Part shown: positions 31,226-38,299 of the stretch, in pieces | How the letters are laid out: every line of letters starts with the position of its first letter | How positions within the stretch are numbered: the stretch's first letter is position 1 | IMG/VR virus record: IMGVR_UViG_3300036760_000512 | Location: 1 to 45,928 of that record | Reading direction: 5' to 3' (one strand) | Source: a virus | DNA length: 45,928 bases | Program-made: the position numbers and the translations under genes | Notes under the pieces: model-generated | The model's database searches: none | The model's input: the letters and a program-made list of their open reading frames with translations, nothing else | Told to the model about the DNA's origin: nothing

Positions 31226-31963
31226 CTATCGTCTCCATACCCGAGAGCCCATCCCGGATTTGACAGGGGAAACTACCGCATTCTGCGTAGAAAGCTCAAT
31301 CGCATCTGTGTTGATCAGTGGACGCATCACAACGAGGAAGTCGTTGAGTGCTGTTGCGGCGTCTGCGTATAGTTGAAGACTGCGAAGTCCGCGATACCGC
31401 GCGCTCAAGAGGATGGGCTCGTGAAACTCTTGAGGAAGAAGTGGACTGTGTGTATCAGCTGTCATATCATCCGGGCGAACTCGGAAGTCCAGCGGTGCGG
31501 TATAAAAAGCATCAGGCGCAGGATACACAACGATCATTCTACGCCAGCGAAAGTACGCAGTCGGCGATTCATCATCGACTACCGGAAACGTCCGATAGCT
31601 TGCTTCGTCAATCATTTCCAACTCGCGACCCTCAGTCACAGGATAGTTTGTTGTATCACTAATGCTCAGCCGAATAACCGATGCAACCTGGACAGGAAGC
31701 AAGTAAAAGGGCTGGGCTGATACAAGACTGAGAGCCACTGAACCACTGAGTTCTTTGAGTGTGAGCATTCCCGCCACGTTCCGATAGGCCTGGTTGATCC
31801 AGCCATTATAGCGGGCTGCTGCTAGATCATCACGCGAACCAAGCTCAAGCGCGAGTTCTGTGCGGAGACTGAGGAGTGTCTCACCTACTGACGTAAGCGG
31901 AGCACCAGCCGTAGTGGATGGTGCTGTCGCTGCCGTCGCGGGATTCAGTACATTGAATGGCAT
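31226..31963 (-). CDS. Tail adaptor / head-tail connector protein
   Basis: A 245-residue protein. ATG 31963 overlaps the upstream TGA by one base. The helical core LLSLRTELALELGSRDDLAA, RYNGWINQAYRNVA then a beta region with a YPVTEGRELEMI stretch is the pattern of podovirus adaptor (gp4-like) or tail-tube A proteins that attach beneath the portal. It lies in the right part of the operon. Assignment is moderate. Confidence 0.65.
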   Translation of the reverse strand: MPFNVLNPATAATAPSTTAGAPLTSVGETLLSLRTELALELGSRDDLAAARYNGWINQAYRNVAGMLTLKELSGSVALSLVSAQPFYLLPVQVASVIRLSISDTTNYPVTEGRELEMIDEASYRTFPVVDDESPTAYFRWRRMIVVYPAPDAFYTAPLDFRVRPDDMTADTHSPLLPQEFHEPILLSARYRGLRSLQLYADAATALNDFLVVMRPLINTDAIELSTQNAVVSPVKSGMGSRVWRR

Positions 31964-32229
31964 CAAGCCGCCTTGGAGATAATGGCACAGATGAGAGACT
32001 TTGTTGCGGTGAGACAGCTTATGCGAATCCAATTTGTGCGTGGCAGAGGGTAGATTCCATCACCCTCGAAATCAATGTACCGTACTTCATCGTCTGTGCT
32101 GATGCGAAAAGAAACACGAACGCACTGTCCCTTTGCGCCATCAATACGAACGGCAGGATGGTGCAGATGAGCCGTGTGTATCCACGGCCCATGCTGCGTT
32201 CCAATGAGAGCGAGCCGCTTACTCGCCAT
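31963..32229 (-). CDS. Small late hypothetical protein
   Basis: An 88-residue protein. ATG 32229 overlaps the end of the gene upstream by 11 bases, a better start than the upstream in-frame ATG at 32283. Beta-rich, with a Trp/His-rich N terminus (QHGPWIHTAHLHHPAVRI). No family recognised; probably a minor virion or connector component. Confidence 0.6.
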   Translation of the reverse strand: MASKRLALIGTQHGPWIHTAHLHHPAVRIDGAKGQCVRVSFRISTDDEVRYIDFEGDGIYPLPRTNWIRISCLTATKSLICAIISKAA

Positions 32230-32659: not shown

Positions 32660-34066
32660 CTACGCGGACACAGACTTGATAACAGTAATACGCAGAACGA
32701 TCGCTTCAGTAAGATTGCCAGCAGTGCGATTTGCAACACTGATGACGGCTGAGCCAGCGCCTGGGAACGCGTTGCACACATACGCGCCACTTGTGCCAGC
32801 AGACTCATGCGTCACAATCACCGTATCCGTAGCGGCAATCGTCGAGTTCGTGAACGTGAATCCGGTGATGACACCTGCATTCAGCACCTGGTTGTGCATC
32901 GTGATTGCGGTCGTCAGCGTGTTCGAGACCACCGTCGTCTGCTTGTTCGTCGCCTGCGTCACAGCACCACCCGCACCCGTCGCGTAGCCGATACCGCCAG
33001 TCGGACTCGCAGACAGGAACGACAGACCAGTCACCGCACCAACGAATGCACCAGCGCCAGCAAACGTAACGCCAGTTGTGTTCGACGTAACTACAATGAC
33101 GTCAGTCCCAGCGCGATTCTTGAGCGTTACATCACCAGTCGTGCCAAAACCCTGGAGCGTAGCGCCACTGACAGTCGAGGCGTAGAACGAACCCTGCGTG
33201 GCAGACAACGCCCCGAGAGTAGCCTGGGCTGTGACTGATTTGACCGTCGTGGTGAATGTACCACCCGTGAATGAAACTGTCGAAGCAAAAGCAACTACGC
33301 CTGTCACGAAGAGCTTCTTCGCAATGCCTACACCACCAGCAACGATCACTGCACCATCAGCCGCCGACGTAGAATCAGTGGCGTTGGTGAGAGTCAGAAT
33401 ACCACTCGCTGCTAGCGTGGTCACACCACTCAACGCACCCGTCATCGCCAGCGCGCCAGCCATCGTTACACCAGTCGTGTTACTCGTTACGACGATGACG
33501 TCAGTGCCGGCACGATTCTTCAGTGTGACATCGCCTGTCGTACCAAAACCCTGAAGCGTAGTACCACTTACTGTCGATGCATAGACCGAAGCCTGCGTTG
33601 CCGCAAGCGCACCCAGCGTTGCCTGCGCCGTCGTGCTGATCAGCGTCGTTGTAAACGTCCCACCAGTGAACGCAACGGTTGCCGCCGCTATTACTGCGCC
33701 AGCCTTCGACACACTGAACTTCGAGCTTGCGCCAACAAGGAAGTCGAGGAACAGAGACGCCGCAGCACTCGCGGTATCCGTGATCGTCAGCGACATTCCC
33801 TTGAACGTGACTGCACCATCATTCCACGTCTGTGTGGCGGCAATCACTGGCGTCGACGTAACAACGGTGGTTCCACCAAGCGTAATGGCAGCAATCACCA
33901 GTCGATCACCAGCGGTGTAGCCAGTGCCACCGAGCATCAGCGCTGTACGCAACGCCGTGATCGTGCTCTTGTACGACTTGTCACCAGGCCTGCCAATTGC
34001 CGTGAGGTCGGTCGCCGGAGCGATCGTCACCATTGCATCATAGGCAGACCACATTTCGCCAGCCAT
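32660..34066 (-). CDS. Repetitive beta-rich virion (fibre/decoration) protein
   Basis: A 468-residue Ala/Thr/Gly/Val-rich protein with almost no Lys/Arg in the middle. An internal repeat of about 73 residues occurs at 132-204 and 265-337 (each containing LQGFGTTGDVTLKNRAGTDV). The same module occurs once in the fibre protein at 29864-31222. The C terminus (residues about 360-468) is a beta sandwich-like segment (FTNSTIAATDTVIVTHESAG). ATG 34066 immediately follows TAG with CAGGAGG upstream. Probably a head fibre or tail-fibre base. Confidence 0.75.
   Translation of the reverse strand: MAGEMWSAYDAMVTIAPATDLTAIGRPGDKSYKSTITALRTALMLGGTGYTAGDRLVIAAITLGGTTVVTSTPVIAATQTWNDGAVTFKGMSLTITDTASAAASLFLDFLVGASSKFSVSKAGAVIAAATVAFTGGTFTTTLISTTAQATLGALAATQASVYASTVSGTTLQGFGTTGDVTLKNRAGTDVIVVTSNTTGVTMAGALAMTGALSGVTTLAASGILTLTNATDSTSAADGAVIVAGGVGIAKKLFVTGVVAFASTVSFTGGTFTTTVKSVTAQATLGALSATQGSFYASTVSGATLQGFGTTGDVTLKNRAGTDVIVVTSNTTGVTFAGAGAFVGAVTGLSFLSASPTGGIGYATGAGGAVTQATNKQTTVVSNTLTTAITMHNQVLNAGVITGFTFTNSTIAATDTVIVTHESAGTSGAYVCNAFPGAGSAVISVANRTAGNLTEAIVLRITVIKSVSA
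33056..33274 (-). repeat. Internal protein-module repeat, copy 2
   Basis: Encodes residues 265-337 of the same protein, with few substitutions relative to copy 1. A third, more diverged version (about residues 73-122 of the fibre protein) lies at 30857-31006. Confidence 0.8.
33455..33673 (-). repeat. Internal protein-module repeat, copy 1
   Basis: Encodes residues 132-204 of the 468-residue virion protein. Similar in DNA and protein to 33056-33274, including the shared core LQGFGTTGDVTLKNRAG. Confidence 0.8.
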
Positions 34067-34531
34067 CTAGACCTCCTGAAGCATGTGAGTGTCCTGTTCA
34101 CTTGACATCTGATTCCCAAGTTCATCAAACATCGAGAACGTCCAGCCTTCCTGCATCATCGCTACGTTGTCCTCGTCGTGCATGGTCAACGCATCTTCAG
34201 ACTGCATCTCGTACGAACGACTCTCGGAGTACATTCCCTGGCCCGCGGAGATGGAGTGCTCAGACCACATCGTCCCCTGCTCACCTGCCATATCCACGCC
34301 AGCTTCATCCCACATTGCAGCATTCGCTTCTGTCAACATGGAAAGAACGTACTCCGACAGCATATCCGTACCGAACTCATCCAGCATCGTCGGGTCTGAC
34401 CCAACTTCATCATCCATCTCGTTGCCAGCCTCGTCAAGCATCAGCTGGCTGAAATGCTCTGCTGGTGGTCGCGTCCCCTCGTCTACCAACTCGCGCCGTC
34501 GGCGTCGAGTAGCTCCACCGAAGTCTTTCAT
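34067..34531 (-). CDS. Met/Glu octad-repeat protein
   Basis: A 154-residue acidic protein. After a basic head (GGATRRRRRELVDE), residues 31-154 are about fifteen imperfect eight-residue repeats: Met at 31, 39, 49, 57, 65, 73, 81, 88, 100, 109, 117, 125, 134, 142 and 150. Glu stands three residues after every one of those Met, so M-x-x-E is invariant in all fifteen units. The third position is usually Asp or Ser (MLDE, MWDE, MYSE, MFDE). This is the signature of a small beta-solenoid or zipper; I know no named family. ATG directly follows the TAA of the gene before, in the late operon downstream of the capsid gene. Confidence 0.75.
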   Translation of the reverse strand: MKDFGGATRRRRRELVDEGTRPPAEHFSQLMLDEAGNEMDDEVGSDPTMLDEFGTDMLSEYVLSMLTEANAAMWDEAGVDMAGEQGTMWSEHSISAGQGMYSESRSYEMQSEDALTMHDEDNVAMMQEGWTFSMFDELGNQMSSEQDTHMLQEV

Positions 34532-34849
34532 TTAGCCCTCGATGAATTCGATGGCCCCTGGGCAAGATGCAACAGTCGCGTCCGTGCGCCGTGCGCGAAC
34601 AGCGTAGTATGCAGGAATATCTGACCATGCGGTGACACTTGGACCCTGGACTTGGGAAACATTTGCCTGTGCTTCAGGATCGTACAGACCAATGGAAATC
34701 CACTCGTCTGCGTATCCATTCACTTCCACAACCACAACTGCAGCAGGGTCAGCTGCAGCCCCGAGCGTGACCTGAACCGCACCATTACGGTATCGGGGCA
34801 GGTTGATTTGGCAGGTTGCATCCTGCGTTGAAAGATTAAAGCTCGGCAC
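34532..34849 (-). CDS. Small beta-rich virion protein downstream of element C
   Basis: A 105-residue protein. GTG 34849 is 7 nt after GAGG; the frame is open far upstream (through the hexamer tract into the capsid gene), but that part is shadow. The sequence (VTLGAAADPAAVVVVEVNGY, AWSDIPAYYAVRARRTD) is a compact beta sandwich-like pattern. Possibly a head-completion or decoration protein; no family recognised. Confidence 0.65.
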   Translation of the reverse strand: MPSFNLSTQDATCQINLPRYRNGAVQVTLGAAADPAAVVVVEVNGYADEWISIGLYDPEAQANVSQVQGPSVTAWSDIPAYYAVRARRTDATVASCPGAIEFIEG

Positions 34850-34881
34850 GTGTGATCCTCGGAAACCTACGGTTGGATGCA

Positions 34882-35020
<139 letters not shown>

Positions 35021-35039
35021 GTCTGCGCCCCCGACACGC

Positions 35040-35954
35040 TTAGCCCGCGCCTTCCGAGCCATACGTACCACGCCAGTCGCCGAAGCCCACGGAGTGACGC
35101 TGGCGAATGCTGTGGAACGTAGCGTTCGCGTTGTTGTCATCCCAGGTCATCGTGTCCGGCATCTCGCGCCAGAAGAAATTCAGGTCCACCTGCGAAGACT
35201 CGGCAAACATTGCCCAACTGTCCGCATCCGTGATCCACGGATCGCTCACAGCCTGCAAACCCTCGTCCTTCAGGGGGTTCACATCGTTCGGCTGGGACGT
35301 GAAGGACACGCCTGGCAGGCCCTCGGACTTGAGCAGGCGCTTCGCCAGCATCCGGTTCGACGGATGGATCAGAAGCGTCTTGGGCTGCAGCAAGATCGGC
35401 ATGCCCCGCTCGTTTACCTGCAGGTCGAACGCCAGAATCGCCGCCTCCAGCCCCGCCTCGCTGAGGTCCGTCGACACCTTGTTCGACACCGTTGCGCCCG
35501 TACCCTGGATCGGGTGATCCGTGGCAAAGAGCGCCTTTCCATCCCGGCCAGTGTACTTCGTCGTCCCGAAGCCGGTGTTGAAAACGTCGTGCCCGTAGAG
35601 CTCGGTCGTCCAGTACGAGGACTGTCCGAGCATCTCCGCCAGCGCCAGGATCTCAGGATACTGCGCGTCATCCCGCATCTCCTTCGAGATGGCGATGCCG
35701 AGCGCGTACGTGAGATTGGTGTAGCGCTGTCCACCGATCTTCAGCGGCTCGTCAAGGATCGTCGTGCCGAGTTCAGTCTTCTTGGCCAACGGTCCCAGAC
35801 CCGCAATCCTGAAGTCGTCTTCGAATGCCTTCTTGGAGTTCTTCACATTCATGAAGCGCCGATACAGCTCTGGATGCTGCCGATAGGCCGTGAAGGTCTT
35901 CATGTTCAGGCCAGGAGCGAGAAGCTCGGCCCACTGTCCGCGTGCAACTGGCAT
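35040..35954 (-). CDS. Major capsid protein (Mu gpT-like / HK97 fold candidate)
   Basis: A 304-residue protein. ATG 35954 follows TAGGAG. YRRFMNVKNSKKAFEDDF, then TTILDEPLKIGGQRYTNL, YALGIAISKEMRDDAQYP and HDVFNTGFG...ALFATDHP match my memory of the Mu gpT-type major head subunit (strong DDxxYP motif and ALFATxHP motif). Length is typical. It lies after the duplicated head protein and before element C, a place where attenuation between capsid and later genes is usual. Confidence 0.82.
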   Translation of the reverse strand: MPVARGQWAELLAPGLNMKTFTAYRQHPELYRRFMNVKNSKKAFEDDFRIAGLGPLAKKTELGTTILDEPLKIGGQRYTNLTYALGIAISKEMRDDAQYPEILALAEMLGQSSYWTTELYGHDVFNTGFGTTKYTGRDGKALFATDHPIQGTGATVSNKVSTDLSEAGLEAAILAFDLQVNERGMPILLQPKTLLIHPSNRMLAKRLLKSEGLPGVSFTSQPNDVNPLKDEGLQAVSDPWITDADSWAMFAESSQVDLNFFWREMPDTMTWDDNNANATFHSIRQRHSVGFGDWRGTYGSEGAG

Positions 35955-35969: not shown

Positions 35970-36440
35970 CTAATTGTCAATAACGGCTGCCTGATCGAAC
36001 GTGACCAACACCCGATTCTGCAACTCCGGATCACCCGTCAGCAACGCGCCGACGTAGACCACTGCATCGTTGTCCGTATCGGTGAAGTCCACCCGATACT
36101 TCGCGTCCGCACTCCGAACGAGCGCGTACTTCGCTCCAATCGTTCCCAGCGAGCCAACGTACTCTGCCGAGAAGAGAATGCCTGGCCCAGGCCACACAGC
36201 CTGAACCACCAGCGCGGGAAATTCCTTCCGCGCCGTGATATTGAATCCAGATGTATCCGCACCACCCGGTCCGATTGCTACGCCAGTGATATCCGCCGAC
36301 GCATTCGTCCCTGCCCCAACATAGGCACCCGCAGTCGTCTTGAGAACCGCACCTGCCAGTTCAGCGTAGCCAACCGCAACGGGCCTCTCTACAATGCGCG
36401 GCAGTTCATCTCCTACCGCAGAAGCCAGCATGAAGCTCAT
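35970..36440 (-). CDS. Head decoration protein, paralogue 1
   Basis: A 156-residue protein, ATG 36440 with CGGAG upstream. About half identical to its upstream neighbour 36453-36917: both share VERP, GYAEL, IGPGG-DTSGFNIT, KEFP, AVWPGPGI and end NRVLVTF...DN. Beta-rich; the position just before the capsid gene is the usual place of decoration or cement proteins. Duplication is visible; function is inferred. Confidence 0.7.
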   Translation of the reverse strand: MSFMLASAVGDELPRIVERPVAVGYAELAGAVLKTTAGAYVGAGTNASADITGVAIGPGGADTSGFNITARKEFPALVVQAVWPGPGILFSAEYVGSLGTIGAKYALVRSADAKYRVDFTDTDNDAVVYVGALLTGDPELQNRVLVTFDQAAVIDN

Positions 36441-36452
36441 TGCAACTCCGTG

Positions 36453-36917
36453 CTAATTGTCAACTACCACAGCTGGCAGGAACGTCACCAGCACTCGATT
36501 CTGGCTCTCGGGAACACCAGTGCTCAGCGCGCCCACATAGCGCACCGCGTCATTGCCTGTGTCCGAGAAGTCTACCTTGTACTTGTTGTCCGTGTCCTTG
36601 ATCAGCGCGTACTTCTCTCCAATCGTGCCAATCGTGCTGACGTACTCGCAGCTGAACACGATTCCCGGTCCCGGCCACACCGCCTGCCCGGTATGCTCAG
36701 GGAACTCCTTATGCCCGGTGATGTTGAAGCCAGACGTGTCAGTCCCGCCTGGTCCAATCATCACACCTGCAATTGCCGCCACGGCATCAGTTCCCACTCC
36801 CTCATACTCGCCCGATGTGACCTTGACAACTGCCCCTTCCAGCTCAGCGTAGCCGCTAATCAGTGGACGTTCAACGACTCGCGTGTTGAGCTGTCCAGGC
36901 GCCAGTTGAAAGCTCAT
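36453..36917 (-). CDS. Head decoration protein, paralogue 2
   Basis: A 154-residue protein, ATG 36917 after TAGGAG. Tandem duplicate of the 35970 gene with the same blocks (GYAELEGAVVKVTSGEYEGV; IGPGGTDTSGFNITGHKEFP). The divergence suggests two related proteins on the head, possibly on different capsid sites. Confidence 0.7.
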   Translation of the reverse strand: MSFQLAPGQLNTRVVERPLISGYAELEGAVVKVTSGEYEGVGTDAVAAIAGVMIGPGGTDTSGFNITGHKEFPEHTGQAVWPGPGIVFSCEYVSTIGTIGEKYALIKDTDNKYKVDFSDTGNDAVRYVGALSTGVPESQNRVLVTFLPAVVVDN

Positions 36918-36926
36918 ACTTGACTC

Positions 36927-37343
36927 CTAGAGTGAATCATTCGTATCCTGGATCAATGCGATCCCTTTCTCCTTTGCCATCCGTTTCGTCTCCGCTGAGG
37001 TCGAAGCCAACGTCGCCTCCTGACGCGCCAGACGATCTGCAACACGCTGCTCGTAGAGGTCCCGAGGACAGCTCATGAGCATCACATCCCCAACTACAAT
37101 GTGACCATCCCCTCGCTTATCAGGTTCAGCGATTGTCTCGATGCCTCCTGTGCTGATCTCTGCCACGTAGCCACGCAGACGGTGCTTCACGACAGAGGTA
37201 TTGTAGCGGTCAACCCGCACCCACCTATAGTGCCGGTTCGGGTCCTTCGACATCTCAACGAGGTCGAGGATCTCCGCATCGTTGCGCTTTCGGTCCCGCA
37301 CTTCTACCGAAGGCACGCTCGGTCCTGCCTTTGCCGCACTCAT
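36927..37343 (-). CDS. Late hypothetical protein
   Basis: A 138-residue protein, ATGA overlap with the scaffold candidate. Basic-acidic mixture with a HYRWVRVDRYNTSVVKHRLR segment and helical tail (QRVADRLARQEATLA). Pattern is seen in small phage proteins encoded between scaffold and capsid genes; function unknown. Confidence 0.65.
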   Translation of the reverse strand: MSAAKAGPSVPSVEVRDRKRNDAEILDLVEMSKDPNRHYRWVRVDRYNTSVVKHRLRGYVAEISTGGIETIAEPDKRGDGHIVVGDVMLMSCPRDLYEQRVADRLARQEATLASTSAETKRMAKEKGIALIQDTNDSL

Positions 37344-38299
37344 CGTCTCACTCCCCCGCCACTCCAGGCGAAATACTCGTCAACCGTCATTCCCATCTGT
37401 CCCCGCACCCACTCCTGTTGCGCAGAGAGCTGGGCCGGAGCAACCGGAGCCGCTCCCGTATTCGGTGCCTCTGTGAAGAACCCGTTGAGGTTCGGCATGG
37501 GCTGGCCCTGGACCCGCATCTGCGGCACCGCAGTCTGGGCGACCTGCGCCACCGCACCCTGCTGTTGTGCAGACCGGAGCGCGAGCTGGCCAACCACAGC
37601 CTCCGTCGCTACGCGCCAGATCATCGGGTTCTGCAGCGCCTCCGCATCGGCACCCGCCAGCCGCTGCTCCACCATCGGGGCAAGCTGGTTCCACGCACCG
37701 CCGAACTCCTGCACCATCTGCGCCCGAGCCGCCTGGACATTGTTCTGTGACTCGCGCTGCAGGAGCGGAGCAAGTCGCGTGTCGAGCTCGCGCCCCACAG
37801 CGGCGGAGATCGCAGCCTGTGGATAGCGCCAATCCCATTCAGGAACCGCACCCGCAGGCGGGCCAGCAGGCTGTGCAACCGGAGCCGCTGGCCGTGGCTG
37901 AGGGACCGGCGTCGGAAGCGCGGGCAGGGCTGGCTGCTGCGGTCCCGGCACCATCTGAAGCACGACCTGTCGCATTCCTGCGTACGTCTGAAGTGCTTCA
38001 CCGATTGTCTTGCCCTGCAGTTCGGGCGGGATGTTCGGCCCGCTGAGGCGCGTATTGACGTCGGCGCCAGCGGAAATCTGCGGCGTCTGTGGAGTGCCCT
38101 GCGGCGCCTGCGGCATGGGGATCGTATTCCCCTCCATCGGTGCGCCTACTGGGCCGGGATTCGGAGCAAACTGAAGCATCTGCGGAGGGGTCTGTGTGGT
38201 TGCCGGTGCCGCAGGAGCGGCTGGCTGGGGCTGTCCCGGTACGGGATAACCTCCCGGTAGTTGCACGAACCCTGTGTTTGGCATAGCTGGGCCTGTCAT
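37340..38299 (-). CDS. Scaffolding protein candidate
   Basis: A 319-residue protein with very Pro/Gln/Ala-rich N terminus (GGYPVPGQPQPAAPAAPATT), a helical middle (about residues 170-250), and a conserved-looking C terminus (GQMGMTVDEYFAWSGGG). Composition and position between portal and capsid genes fit a scaffold or assembly chaperone. The start overlaps the previous stop (ATGA). No protease gene was seen nearby. Confidence 0.65.
   Translation of the reverse strand: MTGPAMPNTGFVQLPGGYPVPGQPQPAAPAAPATTQTPPQMLQFAPNPGPVGAPMEGNTIPMPQAPQGTPQTPQISAGADVNTRLSGPNIPPELQGKTIGEALQTYAGMRQVVLQMVPGPQQPALPALPTPVPQPRPAAPVAQPAGPPAGAVPEWDWRYPQAAISAAVGRELDTRLAPLLQRESQNNVQAARAQMVQEFGGAWNQLAPMVEQRLAGADAEALQNPMIWRVATEAVVGQLALRSAQQQGAVAQVAQTAVPQMRVQGQPMPNLNGFFTEAPNTGAAPVAPAQLSAQQEWVRGQMGMTVDEYFAWSGGGVRR

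Follow-up and report, generated by a model that had tools for sequence, protein, structure and literature searches.

A fifteen-unit methionine-glutamate octad array in a phage late protein and its possible kinship to octad triplets of virion proteins

Genomic context of the octad gene

The window analyzed is a stretch of 45,928 nucleotides, positions 1 to 45,928 of IMG/VR virus record IMGVR_UViG_3300036760_000512. The gene under study (P0001, from here on the octad gene) lies in the minus-strand late operon of this record. In order, the operon carries the terminase (phrog_38), the portal (phrog_1216), a pair of tandem paralogues, the gpT-like capsid protein and an ORF without matches; the octad gene comes next, followed by a 468-aa protein, an SU10-type adaptor and then an Hc3-like protein. 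A similar gene order is found in Roseobacter phage CRP-902, as well as in other phages of the gpT type. The relevant features are listed below; those within and next to the octad gene were read from the sequence, the upstream ORF comes from the ORF list and family searches, and accessions indicate the family matched.

35040..35954, minus strand: major capsid protein, Mu gpT-like (PF25209, PF10124)
34532..35140, minus strand: upstream ORF, up to 202 aa, without family match
34532..34545, minus strand: GAGG Shine-Dalgarno-like stretch and TAA of the upstream gene, abutting the octad ATG
34067..34531, minus strand: octad gene, 154 aa, ORF with M-x-x-E repeats
34493..34507, minus strand: five consecutive Arg at residues 9-13 of a protein otherwise acidic
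34478..34489, minus strand: degenerate unit L-V-D-E, residues 15-18
34070..34441, minus strand: array of 15 M-x-x-E units, residues 31-154
32660..34066, minus strand: 468-aa downstream protein, C-terminus matching phrog_18251
31226..32032, minus strand: SU10-type tail adaptor (PF24175)

The octad gene abuts same-strand neighbours at both its start and its stop, with Shine-Dalgarno-like sequences: on the downstream side, the ATG of the 468-aa gene abuts the octad TAG, and its AGGAGG falls within the last octad codons. The listed start of the upstream ORF overlaps the capsid gene, so that its true start is probably internal. The product had been described in an earlier note on this DNA as a 154-residue acidic late protein: size and acidity (net charge -27) hold, and a late, virion-related role is supported by the position between the gpT-like major capsid protein and the SU10-type adaptor.

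Repeat structure and nucleotide divergence of the array

The M..E tetrapeptides start at residues 31, 39, 49, 57, 65, 73, 81, 88, 100, 109, 117, 125, 134, 142 and 150, with spacings of 8, 10, 8, 8, 8, 8, 7, 12, 9, 8, 8, 9, 8 and 8: nine of the 14 intervals are exactly 8, the extremes being 7 and 12, and linkers of 3 to 8 residues are left between tetrapeptides. Met at position 1 and Glu at position 4 are present in 15 units out of 15. Position 2 is hydrophobic in 11 of the 15 (Leu in 5), position 3 is polar in all, while Gly at position 6, found in 6 of 14 units, is missing from most. The degenerate L-V-D-E at residue 15 precedes the first Met unit by 16 residues, i.e. twice eight. Met makes up 11% of the protein, versus 1.3-5.5% among the other late proteins listed; 16 of its 17 Met residues are either the initiator or the start of a unit, the remaining one, M126, being residue 2 of unit M125.

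When the protein was shuffled 200,000 times with its composition preserved, at most 9 M..E tetrapeptides were obtained; no shuffle reached 15, and none matched the observed count of exact octad neighbours. The array is therefore confirmed as genuine: the fifteen units with Met and Glu, the preference for an eight-residue spacing and the span 34070-34441, all claimed by the earlier note, are borne out.

At the nucleotide level the units have fully diverged. Outside the Met and Glu codons, unit-to-unit identity is 0.31, versus 0.29 for random codons, and in the first 14 units Glu is encoded equally by GAA (7) and GAG (7). No tandem DNA repeat was reported by TRF over the array, which, along with the saturated divergence between units, rules out DNA-level slippage as its origin. 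Saturation outside the Met and Glu codons and the equal use of the two Glu codons indicate that Met and Glu are under protein-level selection: drift to saturation everywhere but at these two residues is the pattern predicted under purifying selection on the protein. This is an old repeat, maintained at the protein level.

Octad triplets in phage virion proteins

Pattern scans revealed tandem octads of the form [L/I/M]-L-x-E-x-G in many virion proteins of uncultivated phages, as a rule grouped three by three. Stretches of three consecutive octads (hydrophobic-Leu/Phe-x-Glu-x-Gly) number 69 in the viral_contigs collection, versus 0.01 to about 1.4 expected from the frequency of single units, if the collection is assumed to hold about 8e10 strand-bases. 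A few of them (L246, L266, L275) are simple low-complexity runs; most are diverse, their units sharing about 50-60% of their nucleotides. Leu at position 2 and Gly at position 6 are partly imposed by the search pattern. In four unrelated virion families the triplet is cleanly inserted and homologues lack it; hosts, insertions and the homologues used for comparison are as follows.

Head closure protein Hc3 (phrog_578), L137 and L289: insertion at L289 residues 96-120, versus phage DSL-LC05 (70% identity)
T7-gp12-like tail (nozzle) protein, L131-L143: insertion in L142, versus phage MEP301
Lambda gpL-like protein (PF05100), L249 and L282: insertions at the same site, L282 residues 84-108 and L249 residues 187-211, versus Xanthomonas phage Kintu
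Distal tail protein (phrog_1302), L285: insertion at residues 116-140, versus Roseobacter phage CRP-406

The tail family phrog_376 also hosts the module. Its hosts include families annotated as virion parts, and the module itself may be located in the virion. The presence of such clean insertions in four or more unrelated families of virion proteins suggests a common function, repeatedly gained and lost by phages.

In some triplets all three units start with Met: MLTEDGEEMLTEDGQVMLAENG in L137 and MLYEAGDEMLFEDGSTMLYEDG in L129 are examples, and others are found in L035, L421, L426, L436 and L348. Two further octad proteins were observed. One, at L278:8381-8920, is a 180-aa phage protein with proline-rich linkers between several triplets, well suited as a minimal target for structural study. 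The other, at L138:2124-2429, is a stand-alone protein of 101 aa comprising about eight octads of the Leu type; the nozzle protein of the same phage also carries the triplet.

Against Pfam, PHROG and PDB the module gave no family match; ankyrin matches to the octad profile were rejected, being due to a chance LLLEAG in consensus ankyrins. No match was found in 385 bacterial genomes, a sample of about 1 Gb, too small to judge enrichment in phages. No description of the LLxExG octad in phages was found in the literature; preprints and subscription papers fell outside the scope of this search, so one may exist.

Relation of the array to the triplets

The octad protein and the LLxExG triplets share a period of 8, a hydrophobic residue at position 1, a mostly hydrophobic position 2, Glu at position 4, Gly at position 6 in some units, a virion gene context and the existence of Met-only examples. 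They differ in size and setting, the triplets being 24 aa long and located within larger proteins or at one end of them, while the 15 units of the array make up an ORF of their own. They also differ in sequence: position 1 of the triplets is normally Leu or Ile, position 2 almost always Leu and position 6 almost always Gly, while the array has Met at 1.

A close resemblance is seen with L284, which carries ILDEAGSDIDDELDDPILDEAGG, near to MLDEAGNEMDDEVGSDPTMLDEFG of the octad protein; the first units of the array, MLDEAGNE-MDDEVGSDPT-MLDEFGTD, nearly repeat ILDEAGSD-IDDELDDP-ILDEAGG of L284. Residues of the array outside the fixed Met and Glu fit an 'ILDEAG' octad profile better than in 100,000 permutations out of 100,000, a figure to be read with the fact that this subset was picked post hoc, partly for the Asp that the octad protein has at position 3, and that the search pattern had already fixed positions 2 and 6 of the profile. 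Restricted to positions 3, 5, 7 and 8, the fit gives a P of about 0.008, position 3 having helped to define the subset. By a profile HMM of Leu-type triplets, the octad protein was not recovered at E<=1, and its score was equalled by 310 of 2,721 scored shuffles in which Met and Glu were kept fixed. With a profile of Met-only triplets, agreement is found only at positions 2 and 6, where hydrophobic residues (P about 0.003) and Gly (P about 0.001), respectively, are enriched in the array over permutation; there is no agreement overall (P 0.33). From these comparisons, the array probably derives from the octad module, or is built like one, and it is not filed as a member.

Searches for relatives of the entire protein gave no useful direct homologue in phages, viral contigs, PDB, Pfam or PHROGs. 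No M-x-x-E array was present downstream of the capsid gene in any of 86 loci related to the major capsid protein (80 viral loci and 6 named phages). Scans for three ATG..GAR units returned mostly low-complexity runs of the MDMDME or MEEENGDD kind, set aside by eye, and pattern scans found no second diverse Met array of this length. The earlier note's remark that few phage proteins have a Met-based repeat holds for diverse arrays as long as this one, but not for Met-only octad triplets, which occur in several phage proteins. Such arrays are overlooked by the low-complexity filters of BLAST and by family databases.

Predicted structure and metal binding

The AlphaFold2 model of the octad protein, obtained from the single sequence with no alignment, has a pLDDT of 48, no strands, and coil in its second half; the model of the L278 protein shows three short strands per triplet, at a pLDDT of 33. 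At such unusable confidence, neither model lends support to any fold, and the Met-lined stack or beta-solenoid proposed in the earlier note, for which structure prediction had been suggested as a check, is left without support from it. In the charge-hydropathy test the octad protein falls on the disordered side, unlike the L278 octads, which lie on the folded side; composition suggests disorder for the octad protein.

Metal binding, also proposed for the repeat, found no specific support in the sequence and is highly improbable. Thioethers and carboxylates that might bind Cu(I) or Ca2+ are plentiful (16 non-initiator Met, 35 Asp or Glu). The protein has, on the other hand, no Cys and only 4 scattered His; a single MM pair is present (125-126), with no MxM or MxxM, and the other Met residues are 7-12 apart, too distant for the known Met-rich copper motifs. 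Met-rich copper-binding proteins feature clustered MxM or MxxM, or clusters of Cys or His, none of which is seen here. RTX repeats, which form beta-rolls with Ca2+, are nonapeptides of consensus GGxGxDxUx: like the octads they are short, acidic and include turn residues, but their period is 9 rather than 8, and neither an RTX-like GGxGxD nor any Pfam match was found in the octad protein. Nor do the annotated neighbours include a metal-handling gene.

Possible role of the octad protein

Ig-like domains are folded accessory modules of about 90 residues, present in unrelated phage structural proteins and probably involved in weak binding. Octads are likewise add-ons to unrelated virion proteins, and may be compared to them, although far smaller: they come as 24-residue triplets or, here, as a string of 15 units. 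A discussion of Ig-like domains is given in, e.g., PMC9022992.

Phage proteins built of short repeats are already known: gp54 of mycobacteriophage Tweety contains tetra- and octapeptide repeats of Ala-Ala-x-x units, encoded by near-identical DNA repeats, and a 24-bp repeat, VR2, is described for a Bordetella phage (PMC2884959). The octad protein resembles them in being a phage protein of many short tandem peptide repeats. It differs from Tweety gp54 in that its DNA is fully diverged and its invariant residues are Met and Glu.

The explanation we propose, about as likely to be right as wrong, is that the octad protein is a virion-associated accessory protein of the head or neck, built from a Met variant of the octad module. 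It would consist of a short basic leader followed by about fifteen tandem Met-version octads, the consensus of the module being hydrophobic-Leu-x-Glu-x-Gly-x-x. In other phages, head-closure, tail-tip, distal-tail and nozzle proteins, unrelated to one another, carry whole triplets inserted into loops or added terminally, which points to an accessory, probably surface-exposed add-on, rather than to a core fold; in the octad protein, the add-on would have turned into a free-standing protein. Each unit would probably form a minimal strand (Met-hydrophobic-polar-Glu), followed by a loose turn or linker, and the array as a whole might act multivalently, through repeated weak contacts either on the particle or with the host or its surroundings. 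The broader view, that tailed phages share a transferable octad module, mostly as 24-aa [L/I/M]LxExG triplets, of which this protein is the methionine-only, 15-unit extreme, is held tentatively, at slightly less than an even chance. As two indispensable residues are marked in each unit, the function of the module could be tested with one small protein.

The main rival of this accessory, strand-and-turn reading is that the protein is an acidic and disordered chain of short linear motifs, in which every Met-hydrophobic-polar-Glu docks in a pocket of a multi-copy partner (capsid, portal or host protein) and the linkers stay unfolded, its likeness to the octad module being due to convergence. That only two positions are invariant, with linkers varying from 3 to 8 residues, is as expected for such a string; composition on the disordered side, the low pLDDT with coil in the second half, and a match to the octad profile that beyond Met and Glu is weak, except for the 'ILDEAG' flavour, point the same way. 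The enrichment at positions 2 and 6 and the strong preference for period 8 are, however, harder to reconcile with it, as is the existence of closely similar octads in virion proteins, and we regard it as unlikely, if well worth keeping in mind. The idea of the earlier note, that the repeat forms a beta-solenoid or a Met-lined stack within the virion, is distinctly doubtful: stacked short strands would accord with a period of 8 in which one invariant residue is hydrophobic and the other acidic, and the related L278 array was modelled with strands, though at very low pLDDT; but spacing is irregular (7 to 12), Gly at position 6 is infrequent, no strands were predicted in the octad protein itself and its composition is disorder-like.

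A scaffold-like or internal assembly protein, whose Arg-rich leader and acidic repeat would bind capsid or DNA, could be imagined from the operon position and from the contrast between the five-Arg leader and the acidic body. It is very improbable, since the place of scaffold-like proteins in syntenic phages is held here by another protein of about 300 aa (37340-38299) and the octad protein has no scaffold signature.

Other features of the late operon

At 34064-34069 the octad TAG is followed by the in-frame ATG of the 468-aa gene, so that read-through would fuse the two proteins; the start of the 468-aa protein, MAGEMWSAYDAM, is reminiscent of the octad units MAGEQGT and MWSE. Ordinary initiation of the 468-aa gene is favoured by the perfect AGGAGG before its ATG and by the TAG stops of several other late genes; amber recoding is ruled out, as TAG ends several of these genes. 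Just upstream of the capsid gene, the tandem paralogues (35970-36440 and 36453-36917) are separated by an in-frame TAG, where syntenic phages have one protein in place of two. The ORF upstream of the octad gene opens with a low-complexity stretch, (VA)n with a Cys run, at 34836-34967.
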